This document shows, in pieces, positions 5,216 through 50,700 of a DNA stretch of 64,000 bases. The DNA lies in the NCBI GenBank assembly GCA_020629175.1, contig JAHDDU010000007.1:22323-86322 (forward strand). The letters run 5' to 3'. Source of the DNA: Flavimaricola sp. (GTDB lineage: Bacteria; Pseudomonadota; Alphaproteobacteria; Rhodobacterales; Rhodobacteraceae). The translations under genes and the position numbers were made by a program. The notes under the pieces are model-generated. The model saw only the letters and a program-made list of their open reading frames with translations, did not search any database and was not told the DNA's origin. How positions within the stretch are numbered: position 1 is the stretch's first letter; every line of letters starts with the position of its first letter.

Positions 5216-5216
<1 letters not shown>

Positions 5217-7312
5217 TGACAGAGAGGGGGCGGCCTGAGGTTCTCTGGCCCCTTTTTGCGGAGCTTACGCAATTGGCCGGCGTCGGGCCCAAAACGGCGC
5301 AAACGCTGGAGAACGCGGGCATCGAAAAGCCGCGCGACATGCTTTTTACACTGCCGCACACGGGCATCGACCGGCAATTGCGGACCAGTATTCGTGAGGT
5401 TTCGGCCACAACGACCGTGACGGTTGAGGTCACCATTGGTCACCACAATCCACCTGCCGTAAAGGGGCGGCCCTATCGGGTGATGGTTGAAGATGCGCAG
5501 ACCAGCTTTCAGCTTGTGTTTTTTCATGCGCGGGAAGATTGGCTGAAAAAGCAATTGCCCACCGGGCAGCGGCGCATCGTCTCGGGCAAGATTGAGCTGT
5601 TCGACGGAATCGCGCAGATGGTCCACCCTGATCACATCGTGGCCGTTGAAAAGGGCAGCGAAATTCCGGGATTTGAGCCTGTTTATCCGCTCACCGCCGG
5701 TGTGACGCAAAAGGTGATGTGGAAAGCCACCCGGGCGGCGGTGGAGCTTGCGCCGACATTGGAGGAATGGATCGACGCCGCTCTGATTGAACGCGAAGGC
5801 TGGCCCGCTTGGAATGCAGCGGTCGTGGCGGCACATACGCCGAAAACTGCCGCGGCCATCGCGCTGACCGATCCGGCGCGGACGCGCCTCGCCTATGACG
5901 AGCTGTTTGCGCATCAGCTGACCCTGGCGCTTGCGCGGGCCAAAGACCGCTCTGCACGCGGTGTGGCGAGTGTGGGGAATGGCCATTTGCGACAGGCGGT
6001 TCTGGCGACTCTGCCGTACCGACCAACGGCGGCGCAGACACGCGCGATGGATGAGATTGCTGATGATCTGGCGCAGCCTGTGCGCATGAACCGTTTGCTG
6101 CAGGGCGACGTTGGCTCAGGCAAGACATTGGTGGCGATGATGGCGCTGCTGACAGCGGTAGAGGCCGGCGGGCAGGGCGTTATGATGGCGCCCACCGAAA
6201 TCCTCGCGCGGCAGCATCTGGATGGGCTGCGCCCGCAAGCCGAGGCGGCAGGTGTCGTGCTCGAGATCCTCACCGGTCGGGACAAGGGGGCCGAGCGCAA
6301 GGCCAAGTTGGCCGCGTTGCAGGAGGGCCGGATTCAGATTCTCGTTGGCACCCATGCGGTGTTTCAGAAGGACGTGCACTTCAAGGATTTGCGCCTTGCT
6401 GTTATTGACGAGCAGCACCGCTTTGGCGTGGCCCAACGGATGGAGCTGGGGGCCAAAGGGCAGGCTGTCGACGTTCTGGTCATGACGGCCACGCCCATCC
6501 CGCGCTCGCTGGCTTTGGCGCAGTTCGGCGATATGGATGTGTCGGTCCTCGATGAGAAACCACCGGGCCGGACGCCGGTTCAGACCGCGTTGATTGCCAC
6601 CGGCAAGATTGACCAGGTTGTCGCACGCCTGCAGGCAGCAGTGGCAGAAGGGCGGCAATGCTATTGGGTCTGCCCCTTGGTGGAGGAGAGCGAGGTCAGC
6701 GATATGACCGCGGCGGAAGAGCGGTTCAAACGGCTTCGCGCAGCCTTTGGTGAGGGGGTCGTGGGCCTTGTGCATGGGCAAATGCCGCCTGCGGAGAAGG
6801 ACGCCGCTATGGCGCGCTTTGTTACGGGTGAGACCAAGGTGCTGGTGGCCACCACCGTAATCGAAGTTGGCGTCAATGTTCCCAATGCGTCGATCATGGT
6901 GATCGAACGGGCCGAGAGCTTTGGTCTTGCGCAATTGCACCAGCTGCGCGGGCGTGTTGGCCGCGGTGCGGCACAGTCGACCTGCCTGATGATGTATCAG
7001 GCTCCGCTAAGCGAGAACGGCCGCAGGCGGCTGGAAATTTTGCGTGAAACGGAGGACGGCTTTCGCATTTCAGAGGAAGATCTGGCCATGCGCGGCGCAG
7101 GCGATGTGATCGGCACGGCGCAATCCGGCTTGCCGCGCTTTCGGGTGGCTGACCTCGAGCGGCAGGCGGGCCTGATGTCCGTGGCGCAGGTAGATGCGCG
7201 CAGGCTGCTGCAAGAGGACCCGGCGCTTGAAAGTGACCGGGGCCGGGCGGCGCGTGTTCTCCTTTGGCTAATGGAACAGGATCGTGCGATCCGTTTGATT
7301 TCAGTGGGTTAG
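5216..7312 (+). CDS. recG: ATP-dependent DNA helicase RecG
   Basis: RecG is a superfamily 2 translocase that remodels stalled replication forks and Holliday junctions. The 698-residue protein begins with a wedge/OB domain (ELTQLAGVGPKTAQTLENAGI, then an OB fold to about residue 190). Two RecA-like domains follow: Walker A GDVGSGKT from residue 297, DEQH box from residue 398 (VIDEQHRFG), motif III MTATPIPR, and motif VI QLRGRVGRG. The C-terminal TRG motif region (ISEEDLAMRGAGDVIGTAQSG) matches RecG/Mfd. It is translationally coupled to ligA. Twenty-odd bases past its stop come LexA-type boxes that belong to the next small gene. Confidence 0.96.
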
Positions 7313-7330: not shown

Positions 7331-7402
7331 GTTCACTTTTGTTCTCAAAAAGTTCTTGCCCTTAGGGCCGTCATGTGAGAACAAAGTAGCAACAAAGAGA
7401 AC
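7331..7402 (+). promoter_or_regulatory. LexA (SOS) box cluster
   Basis: GTTC at 7341-7344 and 7352-7355 are separated by exactly seven bases, matching the alphaproteobacterial LexA consensus GTTC-N7-GTTC. A further GTTC at 7331 is spaced six bases away. Downstream, GAAC-N7-CAAC (7379-7393) is a one-mismatch box in the inverse orientation, followed by another GAAC at 7399-7402. The cluster lies 16-87 bp upstream of a small ORF start. LexA repression is inferred from the match. Confidence 0.72.
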
Positions 7403-7417
7403 ACGATGGAGGCTCAC

Positions 7418-7540
7418 ATGGCACAAGAGATCAAAGCAGCAATCGTCAATTCCCGGCATACGCTCGCGTCGGATGCGATTGGCGCAGTCGCGCTTGGTGT
7501 GATCCTGTTTGCCGGCCTGTGCCTCCCTGGTCTTCTCTGA
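7418..7540 (+). CDS. 40-residue putative SOS-controlled membrane peptide
   Basis: ATG at 7418 follows a good ribosome binding site (GGAGG, 7408-7412) and opens a 40-codon frame ending in TGA at 7538-7540. The peptide starts MAQEIKAAIVNSRHTLASDA and continues as one uninterrupted hydrophobic stretch (about residues 21-40, AIGAVALGVILFAGLCLPGLL), so it should insert in the inner membrane with a short charged cytoplasmic or periplasmic N-terminus. LexA-type boxes lie just upstream and a strong intrinsic terminator downstream, so it looks like a self-contained transcription unit. I do not recognise the family. The architecture resembles SOS-induced membrane peptides such as TisB or DinQ of E. coli, but there is no sequence similarity I can point to. 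Confidence 0.68.
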   Translation: MAQEIKAAIVNSRHTLASDAIGAVALGVILFAGLCLPGLL

Positions 7541-7687
7541 GTTTCTGCCCTGGGCTTGCATGCCGCTGACACACGTCGTCTGTCCCAACATCGACACATC
7601 TGGATTTGTCTGTCCGTCCAATCCGATTTTGTGAAAGTTGCCTCTTTCACCCCGTCAGTCGGGTCCCACATGCAGTGCCTGTTCCTG

Positions 7688-7727
7688 CCGTCGCCATCCT
7701 GTCCCGGATGTGCGGCGGTTTCTTTTT
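7688..7727 (+). terminator. Strong intrinsic terminator of the SOS peptide gene
   Basis: The left arm 7688-7699 (CCGTCGCCATCC) pairs with 7706-7718 (GGATGTGCGGCGG), with one bulged T and one G-T pair, around the loop TGTCCC. TTTCTTTTT follows at 7719-7727. It ends plus-strand transcription just at the 3' end of the convergent Fe-S scaffold-like gene. Confidence 0.8.
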
Positions 7728-8175
7728 AGGCGCAGTCGGTTTTGCCAATCTGGGCCAGCGCGTCGAGCGTCGCGTCAAAGGCCAACATGATCGAGGCGTG
7801 GCGGTTTTTGTATTCCCGCGCGGGCGCAAGGACCTCAAGCCCGTCAAAGGGCTCTGCAGGAGTAGGGCCGTCTGATTTAAGCATGGCGTGCAACTGGTCG
7901 CGCCCGTGCTGCACCTCTGCGGGTGTCAGGCCAACGATAGCAGACCCAACGACCGACGCCGCCGCCTGACCAAGGGCGCAGGCTTTTACATCTTGGGCGT
8001 AATCCGTGATCTTGCCGTCGGACAGGGCGATATCGACCGTCACCGTTGATCCGCACAGCGGTGCACGACGCTTGGCTGTGGCATCGGGGGCGGAGAGCCG
8101 AGCCGTGCGCGGCATCTCCGCGGCGAGCGCCAGAATGCGCTGCGAGTAGAGCTTGATCAGGTCTGTATCGCTCAT
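7726..8175 (-). CDS. Iron-sulfur cluster assembly scaffold-like protein (NifU N-terminal/IscU family)
   Basis: The 149-residue protein matches the NifU_N/IscU fold. The three cysteines expected for cluster assembly are at C41 (APLCGSTV), C66 (VKACALGQAAAS) and C148 (KTDCA). The central motif ALGQAAASVVGSAIVGLT is the conserved IscU-like segment around the second cysteine. The protein is longer at both ends than IscU, and no isc or suf genes adjoin it here. It may be a stand-alone SufU/NifU-like scaffold of the type found near hisI in Rhodobacterales. Its reading frame ends inside the T-run of the convergent terminator. Confidence 0.8.
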   Translation of the reverse strand: MSDTDLIKLYSQRILALAAEMPRTARLSAPDATAKRRAPLCGSTVTVDIALSDGKITDYAQDVKACALGQAAASVVGSAIVGLTPAEVQHGRDQLHAMLKSDGPTPAEPFDGLEVLAPAREYKNRHASIMLAFDATLDALAQIGKTDCA

Positions 8176-18836: not shown

Positions 18837-19427
18837 TTAAGGTTTTTCCGCCGACCATTGGGCCCAATCTTCTGGGGTGTCGAGATCGCGGATCGCTCTG
18901 TCATCTTCCAAAGGCAGCAGCAAATGAGATTTGGCATTGGCACGGATGATAGATTGCGCGCCCTTGTCGCCCTTGAGTGTTTGAAATGCTGGCAGCACAT
19001 GAGCCGCAAAGAGAACCGGATGTCCGGGCGCACCAGAGGCTGTTGCGGCTTGTAAAATTCCGGGCGCGGCGCGTTGAAACATGGCCCAGAGCAGGGCGAT
19101 GTCGGCGCCCAGAATATTTGGCATATCTGCGGGCAGCACCATCAAGGCAGACGTATCGTCCGGCGCCGCGGCGGCACCTGCACGCAGCGATGCTGCCATC
19201 CCCTCTGACGGATCGTCGATTGTCTGTTGGTGAACTGCGAGGGAGGCCACGGCCTCGGTTCGGGCGGCGTTCTTGGGCGGGAGTGTGACGATGACGCTGT
19301 CCGTCACCTGCAGCGCCCGGCGTGCCATCACGCGCAAACAGGGTTCACCGCCCACCGGCATCAGCAATTTATCCGCTCCACGCATGCGGCTCGACGCTCC
19401 AGCGGCTGGGATCAGGACGGTCAACAT
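18837..19427 (-). CDS. MobA/MocA-like NTP transferase
   Basis: This protein of about 196 residues has the nucleotidyltransferase signature LIPAAGASSRMRGADKLLMPVGG at the start, PADMPN for metal binding, and GAPGHPVLF. These match the MobA-like/MocA cytidylyltransferase group that activates molybdopterin or related substrates. The nucleotide and substrate cannot be fixed from sequence. I start at ATG 19427 because the catalytic motif normally lies within ten residues of the N-terminus. A GTG at 19484 would add 19 residues, and neither start has a clear ribosome binding site. No molybdoenzyme is encoded nearby. Confidence 0.78.
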   Translation of the reverse strand: MLTVLIPAAGASSRMRGADKLLMPVGGEPCLRVMARRALQVTDSVIVTLPPKNAARTEAVASLAVHQQTIDDPSEGMAASLRAGAAAAPDDTSALMVLPADMPNILGADIALLWAMFQRAAPGILQAATASGAPGHPVLFAAHVLPAFQTLKGDKGAQSIIRANAKSHLLLPLEDDRAIRDLDTPEDWAQWSAEKP

Positions 19428-41700: not shown

Positions 41701-44700
41701 ATCAGCAACATCGGTCCGCTGGCAACTGGGAACTGCACAGGCACCTACAGCGTCACGCAGGCCGATCTGGACCGCGGGTTCATCGACAACTCCGCCGACG
41801 CGACTGCAACATCACCAACTGGTCTGACAGTGACCGAGACGGATACAGAGACTGTATCCATCAACCCCGCAGCACAGATCCGTTCGCTTGACCTGACAAA
41901 AACAGCGACGCCGCAAAGCTTTAGCTCTGTCGGTGATGTCATTGATTTCGTTATTGAAGTTGAAAATACCGGAAACCTGACGCTTGAGAATATTGTCGTC
42001 AATGATCCCGACCTTGGGCTTACCTGTGCCATCGCAACGCTCGCGCCACTGGCCAGCGACAACAGCTGTACCGGCAGCTACACGATCACTCAGGCCGACA
42101 TTGACAATGGCGGGTATACGAACACCGCAACGGCCACCGCAAACGGTGTGCCGCCACAACCAGTCAGCGAAACTGTCAGCGGCCCTGCGCGGGTGGCGAG
42201 TTTTGATTTCAGCAAGTCGTTTGATGCGCCATTTACGGCAGTGGGCGATCAAGTGCGTTTCACCTTGCGGGTGGAAAACACTGGGAACGTCACTCTCAAC
42301 AACGTGGTTCTGAACGACCCGTTCTTTGACCCAGACCTCGTCTGTAACATCGGCTCACTGGCGCCGGGTGCTGTCGATACGAGTTGTTTCGGCGACTACA
42401 TCGTTGATCAGGACGATGTGGATGCGGGCTCGATCACCAACGCCGCCACCCTTGATGCCACGGCTGTGGGCCAGCCGCCGCTGTCCGGTGCGGCAAACGT
42501 CACAGTTCCGGGCCCTGCACGGCAGCCGGCTATGGTTGTGACAAAGTCTGAAGCAGATGGGTCGGGCGATTTTGCCAACCTTCCAACAACCGAGACTTAC
42601 ACGTTTACAGTTGAAAACACCGGCAATGTGCGGCTGAGCAACATCGTCCTGACGGATGCGTTGACAGGCTTTAGCTGTCCGATTGCACCGCTTGATCCCG
42701 GTCAGACCGCCACGACCTGTGCGGACAGTTCGCCGCTGAGCACGACCTATACGATCACGCAGGCTGATATCGACAATGGGGCGCTGACCAACACGGCAAC
42801 GGTCACAGCGGACACGCCTCCCGGGGTGCCATCAATTTCGGAAACCGGCAGCGAAACACTGGCCGGGCCCGATCAGCTGCCAGCATTGACGGTGGTCAAG
42901 TCCGAGACTTCAGGCGCGAATTTCTCAGCCGTTGGGGATCAGATCACATACGATTACGTGGTGACCAACGCAGGCAACATCACGATTGATCAACAGATCA
43001 GCGTCGCTGATGACCAAACCACGGTCAGCTGTCCGGCCACGCCTTCGGCGGGCATTGCACCAGGGGCGACATTGACCTGTACGTCGGTCTACACCGTGAC
43101 GCAGGCAGACCTTGATGCGGGGCAGGTGGTGAATGTGGCCTCTGCCAGTGTGTCCCAACCCGTTGTGCCCTCATCCACGTACCCTGGTGGCGTTGCAAAC
43201 GTCACATCGCCGCAGGTATCGGAAACGGTGCAAGCAAGTCAGCAGCCTGCGTTGAGCATCACCAAGCGCATTCAGCCTGGTACCTCAACGACGTATGATG
43301 CGCCGGGCAACCTGTCGAATGCGTCGGACCCGAACAACCTGATCTTTGAATTCATTGTGACCAATTCGGGCAACGTGACGACAACAGCGCCCATCACCGT
43401 AGACGACGCGGCGATCCCGGCGAACATCACCTGTACCACTGCGCCTTTGGCTCCGGGAGAGCAGGCGATCTGTCAGGCCACCTGGGCACCGGATCAGACG
43501 GATGTGGACAACGGCTCTTTCACGAACTCGGCCACGGCCAGCACCGTGTTTGACGGCTCAACCGTCACAACACCGACACCGGGGGAAGCGACGGCCTTTG
43601 CCGTTCAGCGGCCGGAGATTTCCATCGCCAAAGCCTTTGTCAGCATCACAAACGGTGTCTTCGACGTCGGGAACGTCGCGACTTATGAGTTCACGGTTAC
43701 CAACACCGGCAACACGTCGACCCTTGGCCCGGTGACTGTGAACGACAACTTGATTGGTGCGATCTCTTGTGGAACGTCCGCGCTTGCGCCGGGCGATGTT
43801 GTGACATGTCAGGGGACGTACACCATCACTCAGGATGACTTTGACCTTGGCTCGGTCACAAACATCGCTTCCGGCACAGACGGTACAACGACATCGGACC
43901 CCACGTCCGAGACGATCCCCGCCGATGCCAACCCTGCAATTTCAATCGATAAAATTGCCCTGGCCCCAGTCACCGCGACGCAAGCGGGCGATACGATCGA
44001 TTATCAGTTCACAATCACCAACACGTCGCCAGGGAACGGGACGGTACGTCCGGCTCTTGGGCCGTCGTTCACAATCGATGATGACAAGATCGGTTCGTTC
44101 ACCTGTAGTTCGGGCAGCGCTCTTCAGCCTGACGCCTCGTTTAGCTGTACTGCCACGTACACCGTGACACAGGCCGATGTGGATGCCGTCTCGGGCACTG
44201 GTCCCGATGGGTTTGTGACGAACAATGCCACAGGCTCTACCGTGTTCGGCTCGACCGACGTTGTCAGCCCTCCGGATCAGGTGACCGTGAATCTGAGCGG
44301 CTCTCCCGCGCTCGAGGTTGTCAAGACAGCTACCAACCAGACCGATCCCGGGCAGCCTGCCGATGTGGGTGATACGCTCAACTTTGCTATTCAGGTCAGC
44401 AACACCGGAAACCAGACGATCTCGAACGTGATTGTCACCGACCCGATGCTGACGAACCTGACCTGTCCACCCGGCTCTCCGGATCCGAACAACCTGACCA
44501 TCGCGCCGAACAGCCAGATCACCTGTAACGGCACATACGTCGTCACGCAGGGCGATCTAGACGGGCAGAGTATTGCCAACACGGCAAACGCGAGCGGTTC
44601 GACGCCGAGCGGCGGCAGCGTGACGGATGATGGCAGCACAACCTATCCGCCGGCCACCCCGAACCCGAGCCTGAATGTCACCAAGGAAGTTCTCAACGTT

Positions 44701-47700: not shown

Positions 47701-50700
47701 GAGGTGGATGGCACCGTTTATCCGGGCGTGCCCTCTGAACGCTATGTTGTTGGAGCGATCGTCACCTACGAATACACTGTTTCAAACACTGGGAACGTGA
47801 CAATCACTCAGCCGGTTTCGGTGTCCGACAACCTCATCGCTTCGGTGAACTGCCCGGCCTTGCCCGCGACGGGCCTCGCCCCCGGCGCCGATCTGGTTTG
47901 TACGGGAACCTATACTGTCACGTCTGATGACGTTTCGCTCGGCTCAACAACCAACCTTGCAAGTGCGACAGACGGGACGACAACATCGCCAATCACCAGC
48001 GAAACCGTGCCTGCGAATGGTCAGCCGTCGCTCGAAACGGTGAAAACCTTGCTCGACGTGACGAACCCGGATTCCACGCTCTCCGCGGGGCTGGGCTATG
48101 ATGAAGTCGGCGACGTACTGCGGTACCAGTTCACCGTCACAAACACCGGGCAGGTGTCCTTCGCCGACCCGGTCACAGTAAGCGACACGCGGATACCGGG
48201 CGCGATCAGCTGTTTTGCCCCGACGGCTGCGGACCCTGACCTTCGCCCCGGTGAGAGCGTGACCTGCGAGGCGACCTACACTGTGACCCAAGCGGACCTT
48301 GACGCGCAAACAGTGGTGAATGAGGCCTTTGCCGAAACTACGTTTGGCGGCGGCACTCCAGTGGTGTCTCCCCCCGCCACCGAGACGGCGGATGTGGATG
48401 CGATGCCGTCGGTTGCTGTCAGCAAATCTGCCGCGACACTGCCGCTGACAGGCGTGGGTCAGGTGTTGACCTACACGATCACGGTTGAGAACACAGGCAA
48501 CCAAACGCTTCAACAGGTTGAGGCAACGGATCCGCTGTTGCCCGGTCTGGTGTGTGAGGCGGCGAGCCTTGCCCCGGGCGCCGTGCTGACCTGTGCGGAT
48601 GACTACACAGTCACACAGGCCGACATTGACGCAGGTTCTGTCGTCAATACAGCGGACGTCACGGCGATCACGCCTGCAGGTGGGGCTGTGACGGACACGA
48701 CATCCCTCACTGTAGACGCGCCACCACCGGCCCCGGCGCTTGAGGTCGAAAAGATCGCCAGCATCGAGCCGTTTGGCCCAGCGGGCAGCACGATCCAGTA
48801 TACTTTTGCAGTGACCAACACCGGCAACGTGACGCTTTCAAATGTGCAGATTGAGGATGCGATCCTGACGCCTGCGTATACGTGCACTATCGCAACGCTT
48901 GCAGTGGGCGAGACGAACGCCAACTGTCTGATGAGCTATACGGTCACGCAAGGCGATGTTGATGCGGGCGAGGTTGTGAACACCGTCGACGTCACGGCAA
49001 CCGGTCCAAACGGTGGTGTTGCAACGGCAACGGACACGTTGCTGACAGAGGGCATGGCTTCAGCCGCCGAGCTCAATGTGACGAAACTTGCCGCGTTGAC
49101 CGGACCTGCAGAACCTGGCGCGGTGATCAACTATCAGCTGGTCGTTCAGAACACGGGCAACGTCACTGTGACGCCCACGGGTGTGAGCGATGTGATGACG
49201 CGTGCGGATGGGACGCCAATCGCGCTTGATGTGCCATTCGCCTTTACCGGTGGAGACAGCAACAACGATGGCCGCATCGCATTGACTGAGACATGGACCT
49301 ATGAGGCCACCTATACGCTGACGCAGGCCGACATCGATGCGGGCGGTGTCAGCAACAGCGCGACGGTGGACGGCACGGCGCCGAACGGAACGCCTGTTTC
49401 TGACACATCCGACGATGGCGATGACGGAGACGGCAATTCGAGCGATGATCCAACCGAAATCCTCGTGCCAGAGGCGCCCGGCGTCGTTGCGGTGAAAACG
49501 GCGACCACGGGTGGCGCGGTTGCGGGCGATACGATTGAATTCGAGATCGCGGTGACAAACACCGGTAATGTCAGCCTGCTGAATGTGACTGTCGCTGACA
49601 ACCTGACCAACAATGACGGCGCGGACATCAGCGCGGGCGTGGTCGGGCCGAACTTGCGGACCACACCTCAGGTGCCGGGCGCGTTGCAACCGGCTGAAAC
49701 ATGGGTCTACGACGTCAGCTACGTGCTGACACAGGCCGATGTGGATTCCGGTGGCGTTAGCAACTCGGCCGTCATTGACGCTGTGACGTCTGTGGGAACG
49801 CCCGTGACCGATATTTCGGACAGCGGCGATCCAGGTGATGGCCCGGGGAATGATGATCCGACGAGCGTGACCATCACCGCCGCTCCGAGTGTCGAAGTGA
49901 CCAAACTCGCGGGCGCGCCAGTTCGGGCGGGCGAAGGGCTGTTTGATGTGACCTTCACTTTGCAGGCTGAAAATACAGGCAACGTCACGCTGGGTGAGTT
50001 GTCGATGGTCGATGATCTCGTGGCCTTTGCCGCACCAGCAACAGTTGTGGCCGTGACGACGCCAACCTCCACCGGCTTTGTCTCGGGCGGGGCAAGCGCG
50101 AGCTTTGACGGCATTTCCGATACCGAAGCCTTGGCCCCAGGATCAGCCATAGCGCCGGGGCAGGTGGGTGAGGTCGTCTTCACCGTAACGCTTGACGTCA
50201 CCGATGGCTCGCCCGGACAGCCGAACATCGTCTTGTTCAATGCCGACCGTATTGCAGGCGAAGTGTCCGCGGATGTGAGCATCGCAACAGTCGCTGCGGC
50301 GGACCTCGAGATGTCAAAGTCCGTTTCGCCGCGCAACGCGATAGTGGGCGATATTGTAACCTACACCTTGCGTGTCCAGAACAACGGCAGCTTCAATGAA
50401 AACGGGCTGACGCTGGTGGACGAGATGCCAAGCGGCCTCGTACTGATGGAGGGCACGGCGCTGATCAACGGGTCTGCGACGCCGGAGCCAGAGGTGTCAG
50501 GCCGCAACCTGCTATGGCAGCCGCTGGACTTGCCCGCCGGGCAGGCGATTGAGGTGACGTTTGAGGCCCGCATCGTCGATGGGCCGGGCGAGTTGACGAA
50601 CCGGGCCTACATCGTGGGGCCAGATGGCCGAATTTTGTCGAACATTGCGACGGCGACGATCCAGATCAGGCCAGAGGCGGTGTTTGACTGCGGTGACGTC

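Follow-up and report, generated by a model that had tools for sequence, protein, structure and literature searches.

A putative SOS-controlled membrane microprotein gene with a structured 3' UTR behind recG in Rhodobacteraceae

SOS-induced small membrane inhibitors are known as a kind. SidA of Caulobacter crescentus, a 29-residue SOS-induced inner-membrane division inhibitor, binds FtsW (PMC4211646), and the filamentation of Caulobacter delta-lexA cells is due to sidA; about 97% of the SOS promoters of this organism carry a single LexA box (PMC12700426). YneA, ChiZ and SosA from Bacillota and Actinomycetota are also SOS-induced and target the late divisome through their one membrane helix; the helix of YneA binds FtsW TM7, and the same has been predicted for SidA, SosA and ChiZ (PMC13396833). 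In Escherichia coli, the type I toxin of the TisB/IstR-1 pair is a small hydrophobic peptide under LexA control. Dual-function bacterial RNAs include SgrS/SgrT and RNAIII/hld.

The gene described here was found in a 64,000-nucleotide stretch of Flavimaricola sp. DNA (hereafter the window, meaning the whole stretch analysed). By prediction it resembles sidA in being alphaproteobacterial and LexA-controlled and in encoding a tiny single-span inner-membrane protein (PMC4211646, PMC12700426); the first-pass annotation of this DNA had taken such an alphaproteobacterial counterpart to be new, for which SidA is a precedent of the kind (PMC4211646). It differs from SidA, compared here by its published description and not by sequence, in its longer peptide (40 vs 29 residues), its amphipathic N-terminal helix, its position behind recG and its conserved structured 3' UTR. 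By analogy, the chances that the peptide works like SidA appear about even. Predicted SOS control and a single membrane helix are shared with YneA, ChiZ and SosA. Unlike YneA and ChiZ (LysM) and SosA (extended helix), the peptide stops at the membrane and lacks a periplasmic domain; an extracytoplasmic LysM domain is absent, and its 40 residues contain no Pfam domain. Small size, hydrophobicity and LexA-type control are common to this peptide and TisB, whereas the TisB helix is amphipathic, charged and paired with the IstR RNA, none of which was seen here. Like SgrS/SgrT and RNAIII/hld, the locus combines, on a short predicted transcript, a small protein frame with an untranslated RNA of conserved structure that closes with a terminator, but it differs from them in its predicted SOS control, and a base-pairing role is putative here. 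No description of the protein family, the LexA array or the conserved 3' UTR RNA appears to exist in the libraries and literature searched, where the EcpR1 paper names recG solely as a cloning fragment and the main text of an in silico LexA study of D. shibae does not mention recG.

Layout and conservation of the unit behind recG

The locus displayed the following features (window coordinates):

5216-7312, plus strand: recG, upstream neighbour outside the unit (Pfam RecG_wedge and RecG_dom3_C)
7331-7355, plus strand: upstream LexA half-site array GTTC-N6-GTTC-N7-GTTC (7331-7334, 7341-7344, 7352-7355), conserved in the promoter logo
7356-7361, plus strand: -35-like element TTGCCC at logo positions +15 to +20, putatively part of the promoter
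7379-7393, plus strand: downstream LexA box GAAC-AAAGTAG-CAAC, in the logo, oriented as other LexA boxes of the genome
7408-7412, plus strand: Shine-Dalgarno sequence GGAGG, 5 nt ahead of the ATG
7418-7540, plus strand: frame of the 40-residue peptide (MAQEIKAAIVNSRHTLASDAIGAVALGVILFAGLCLPGLL), with a predicted membrane helix and family-wide conservation
7542-7687, plus strand: structured 3' UTR RNA with the UUUCUGCC motif (7542-7549), a long closing stem and hairpins with C-rich loops
7687-7727, plus strand: intrinsic terminator with T tract, its first base common to the end of the RNA model match
7726-8175, minus strand: NifU_N-like gene (Pfam NifU_N, synteny), convergent downstream neighbour, given for context only

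The first GTTC of the array begins 18 nt past the recG stop codon (7312), and hisI comes next after the convergent NifU_N-like gene in the window. Adjacency to recG was found in 134 of the 141 loci examined. All elements listed by the first-pass annotation (a LexA-type box, additional GTTC/GAAC sites, a Shine-Dalgarno sequence, a 40-codon membrane-helix frame and a strong terminator) were present where it had placed them. Its description of a self-contained unit was confirmed, except that the gap between frame and terminator is not empty and holds the conserved structured RNA. The 40-codon start at 7418 proved conserved, while an upstream in-frame ATG at 7406 was not a conserved start.

The analysis shows a conserved gene, a LexA-type array, topology-type features of the peptide and a structured 3' UTR. 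A frame of the same length with the same LexA box had been anticipated behind recG in relatives, and a frame not conserved there was to count against the annotation; the frame was detected by single-sequence search in the genus and the family, and by a 27-row profile in 265 of 298 sampled Rhodobacteraceae genomes (264 of 297 genera). It had exactly 40 codons in 86 of 122 unique loci. The ribosome site and the 40-codon length were kept in nearly all copies, though protein identity to the window peptide drops to 38%. Purifying selection acts on the frame, with a median dN/dS of 0.42 and the least variation at the second codon position among 86 ungapped 40-codon homologues. No credible match to the peptide was obtained in Pfam, NCBIfam or PHROGs, a match to phrog_12744 (E 0.1) being regarded as chance.

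Among recG-bearing genomes in which the profile match failed or was weak, 19 of 24 encoded a hydrophobic peptide behind recG, in most cases 36-46 codons long and accompanied by LexA-type half-sites; for those fully missed by the profile, a diverged hydrophobic peptide of 36-46 codons with such half-sites was found in 10 of 14. At two deep-branching loci, L246 (G116) and L247 (G034), recG is followed by a strongly diverged membrane peptide, with a GAAC-N7-GAAC box as the sole LexA-type element, which suggests an origin of the unit deeper than the profile can reach. Five recG-bearing family genomes (G135/L233, G081/L237, G010/L240, G079/L242 and G019/L243) had neither LexA array nor peptide behind recG, and the unit is therefore not indispensable; these five represent natural losses or relocations. 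A missing LexA was uninformative as a reason for a missing peptide, LexA being present in 37 of the 40 genomes tested. Neither a convincing LexA nor RecG was found in G031 and G084 (Mfd-like match only), and G016 and G121 had LexA with no RecG match; these four are possibly SOS-reduced lineages or incomplete assemblies. Outside Rhodobacteraceae, one weak profile match was the only one in a class sample of 289 genomes (four family members included), and recG flanks from 27 genomes outside the family held no comparable unit.

LexA-type array and promoter

GTTC half-sites at 7331, 7341 and 7352 follow each other at 10 and 11 bp in the window, the GTTC-N7-GTTC box at 7341-7355 reading GTTCTCAAAAAGTTC, and more half-sites lie downstream of 7355 (GAAC at 7379, CAAC at 7390, GAAC at 7399). 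The bare box is within chance in the 64-kb window (3 matches vs 2.1 expected; the other two at 44097-44111 and 19258-19272), and the case therefore rests on conservation and comparison. Counts of the bare box were not used as evidence, since the exact GTTC-N7-GTTC was no commoner in the same genome than its reversed control (60 vs 119). Arrays of three half-sites of the upstream type occurred twice in this entire genome.

Across 122 unique loci the promoter logo gives tttGTTCnCaaATGTTCTcAaAAAGTTCTTTACa-N11-ataTGAGAACAAAgnggCAACA; the spacing within it hardly varies, flanking positions are poorly conserved, and its upstream array is tttGTTCnCaaATGTTCTcAaAAAGTTC. The array was near-invariant among these loci, the N7 core being fixed because they had been picked by it. 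The -35-like element, TTGCCC in the window and TTTACA in most relatives, is located 17 nt ahead of the GAAC of the downstream box. The general form of that box is GAAC-N7-(C/G)AAC, and several diverged relatives have it as a perfect GAAC-N7-GAAC. The GTTC-N7-GTTC box singled out earlier is present, but the orientation that matches the recA, lexA and uvrD boxes is that of the downstream GAAC-N7-CAAC.

GTTC-N7-GTTC was also found before the recA, lexA, uvrD, mmcB-like, metallophosphoesterase and radical-SAM genes of the same genome. The coding-strand reading at recA, lexA, uvrD and the radical-SAM gene is GAAC-N7-GAAC, as in the downstream box. Two features expected of a LexA (SOS) regulon member were thus displayed by the sequence, a promoter box like those of recA and lexA, and a box kept with the gene across relatives. 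The boxes before the radical-SAM (L037), metallophosphoesterase (L051) and mmcB-like (L095) genes outline the SOS regulon of this genome. At recA (L036), a second degenerate box (GTTC-N7-GGTC) lies upstream of GAAC-N7-GAAC, a double-site layout related to the array with a spacing one helical turn shorter. The several half-sites of the array are unusual beside the single boxes of Caulobacter, which suggests tight repression.

The array core alone, with the peptide left out of the query, was scanned over about 85,000 genomes and yielded at least 80 loci. Among the matches listed, 78 were of Rhodobacteraceae type (Rhodobacteraceae or unnamed Alphaproteobacteria/Pseudomonadota) and had the unit; two others, in a Muribaculaceae bin and a Butyrivibrio bin, were chance matches. 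The peptide frame was recognised downstream by script in 75 of these 78 loci; of the remaining three, L177 and L180 visibly carry the frame and L166 shows promoter, Shine-Dalgarno sequence and ATG frame. The promoter motif alone is predictive of the gene in the 78 Rhodobacteraceae-type loci among the matches listed.

The peptide and the structured 3' UTR

AlphaFold2 predicted a single helix over residues 2-39 (mean pLDDT 85.5). Residues 2-18 are amphipathic (moment 0.40 vs 0.25 for shuffled sequence) and include K6 and R11 in the majority of homologues (position 11 is N in the window peptide), while residues 20-40 are strongly hydrophobic and non-amphipathic (moment about 0.05-0.06). None of the 86 homologous peptides has a charged residue after position 19. 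The same computation on the E. coli TisB helix, taken from its genome record, gave a moment of 0.35 with charges inside the helix. D19 and G22 were invariant (86/86), L26, L34, L36 and P37 exceeded 90% and L30 reached about 90%. The modelled features of the peptide suggest a helix anchored in the membrane and offering a specific contact face (D19, G22, A/S25; L26, L30, L34), not a pore-forming amphipath, because its N-terminus is amphipathic and its membrane helix, unlike that of TisB, is non-amphipathic and uncharged. The invariant residues likely reflect a specific partner, without telling which one. Judged from sequence, the gene very probably encodes an SOS-controlled membrane microprotein.

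A terminator-like hairpin was detected in 117 of 122 loci at a median of 142 nt past the stop codon, and in 57 of 59 loci against 1 of 59 in shuffled sequence; its stem showed compensatory changes. Between frame and terminator, the 3' UTR displayed conserved motifs in the order UUUCUGCC (near the stop codon), CUGUCCC, CUGCCUGUCC and UGCCUC. In the window, the C-rich loops are CUGUCCC at 7580, CUGUCC at 7610 and UGCCUC at 7639. A TCTGCC-type motif occurred in 111 of 117 loci vs 21 in shuffles, and TGTCC in 89 of 117 vs 17. The conserved loops had unpaired probabilities of 0.57-0.74, against 0.39 for the rest of the RNA.

Stem halves were folded with their own partner and with partners of other species. 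Own partners folded more stably in the outer stem (-21.0 vs -14.7 kcal/mol swapped, sd of means 0.22), H1 (-8.75 vs -6.39, 0.20) and H3 (-7.57 vs -6.04, 0.43). H2 gave -6.97 vs -6.33 kcal/mol (0.26) and is not established, because one of the two negative controls shifted by about 0.7 kcal/mol, the other being flat. In a 14-sequence alignment, 90% of cells paired vs 37-44% with partners slid, a comparison that favours the true register as the structures were derived from these same 14 sequences, and 20 pairs were changed on both sides; a 16-sequence subset gave the same result. RNAalifold on 50 divergent 3' UTRs recovered the terminator alone, probably because MAFFT misaligns the stems. Both the T-tract position and the excess of GU over AC cells (12 vs 4) point to the plus strand, while stem energies, including P1, did not discriminate the strand.

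The covariance model R2, built without the window sequence, matched 7542-7687 (44.2 bits, E 9e-8). It matched in 32 of 101 family genomes, once in each, and the match adjoined the peptide gene in at least 31 of the 32, as far as coordinates could be paired with peptide hits. No second credible copy was found in the window's own genome; a weak match elsewhere in genome G027 (E 0.08) is probably chance, as is a weak partial match at 47821-47915 of the window (20 bits, E 0.03-0.14). No Rfam family matched the RNA, which is a candidate new RNA family. Conserved RNA structure outside the coding frame, as expected of a dual-function sRNA, was found.

Possible roles after DNA damage

In the proposed mechanism, LexA bound to the multi-site array over the promoter of this stand-alone SOS gene would keep transcription tightly off, and DNA damage, through RecA-triggered LexA cleavage, would release it. 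The short transcript would carry the frame of the 40-residue inner-membrane protein followed by the structured 3' UTR and the terminator. The amphipathic, positively charged N-terminal helix would lie on the cytoplasmic side and precede one membrane helix, whose border residues (D19, G22, A/S25) and leucine stripe (L26/L30/L34) would probably form the docking surface for a partner's membrane helices. This partner would most likely belong to the machinery that builds the septal cell wall (FtsW or the proteins acting with it, in the FtsW/FtsI/FtsN complex), and docking would delay septation until repair is done, so that the peptide would do the job that SidA has in Caulobacter. We infer the binding of LexA, induction, insertion into the membrane, the partner and division arrest. 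The division step was proposed because known SOS-induced single-span membrane proteins act in this way and because Caulobacter delta-lexA filamentation is due to sidA; on lexA-mutant filamentation in Rhodobacter, the literature searched contained nothing relevant. That the peptide is a divisome inhibitor is, on this analogy, a balanced proposition.

Many bacterial stress microproteins regulate other membrane proteins, and the invariant membrane-border residues, which suggest a specific partner, would also suit a small regulator of some other inner-membrane protein (a protease, a transporter, or a respiratory or lipid enzyme) that tunes the envelope during DNA damage and leaves the divisome alone. 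We consider this rather unlikely, as the SOS single-span proteins considered (SidA, YneA, SosA, ChiZ) all act on a late step of division (PMC4211646, PMC13396833). The first-pass annotation had favoured a mechanism of the TisB/DinQ type, with membrane depolarisation and slowed growth after DNA damage. In the form considered here, the SOS-induced peptide would make pores in the inner membrane, reduce the proton-motive force and slow growth, and an RNA antitoxin or its own structured mRNA would restrain it. SOS control, small size, a single hydrophobic helix and a structured mRNA agree with it, but the low helix moment (0.06 vs 0.35 for TisB), the uncharged membrane segment and the invariance of D19 and G22 at the membrane border do not, nor does a near-universal, single-locus gene where a sporadic one would be expected. 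In addition, the recG stop codon lies at a median of 28 nt upstream of the N7 box, so that usually little upstream room is left for an IstR-like RNA gene, and the conserved T tract stands at the plus-strand 3' end; we consider pore formation improbable. Rfam matched no antitoxin RNA beside the gene.

The RNA could also be the main product and the peptide a second one: the 3' UTR would then be a trans-acting, SOS-induced small RNA that works by means of its C-rich loops (CUGUCC, CUGCC, UGCCUC). Its covarying structure, single-stranded C-rich motifs conserved far above shuffles, and single copy per genome beside the peptide speak for this, against which stand the strong constraint on the peptide frame itself, the alternative that the 3' UTR serves stability, translation or localisation, and the lack of a known target and of covarying pairing with its own 5' UTR (own -25.0 vs swapped -25.5 kcal/mol, no signal). 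We regard RNA as the main product as improbable. A chance open frame beside unrelated LexA-like motifs would agree with a bare box no rarer than chance, but hundreds of genomes retain the frame with its length, its promoter, the 3' RNA and the synteny, which refutes it; its probability is negligible. Some RNA function beyond that of an ordinary mRNA is possible and can be combined with any reading of the protein. A family-wide dual-function SOS transcript, encoding a divisome-directed 40-residue membrane protein and carrying a conserved multi-hairpin 3' UTR RNA that would control other mRNAs through its C-rich loops, is put forward tentatively; if true, the DNA-damage checkpoint would work at both protein and RNA level from a single locus.

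Rhodobacteraceae, a large family of marine and soil bacteria, are among the most abundant bacterial families of the sea and include the model producers of gene-transfer agents. Most or nearly all of these bacteria have the gene, for which the protein family libraries tested contain no entry; its conserved 3' UTR RNA would constitute a new RNA family and might be a dual-function RNA under SOS control. If the peptide is a checkpoint protein, the question of how the family halts division after DNA damage becomes directly testable in tractable strains, and an independent SOS membrane inhibitor would be at hand for comparing how such helices jam FtsW. Such a checkpoint might also account for arrested division during SOS or gene-transfer-agent states.
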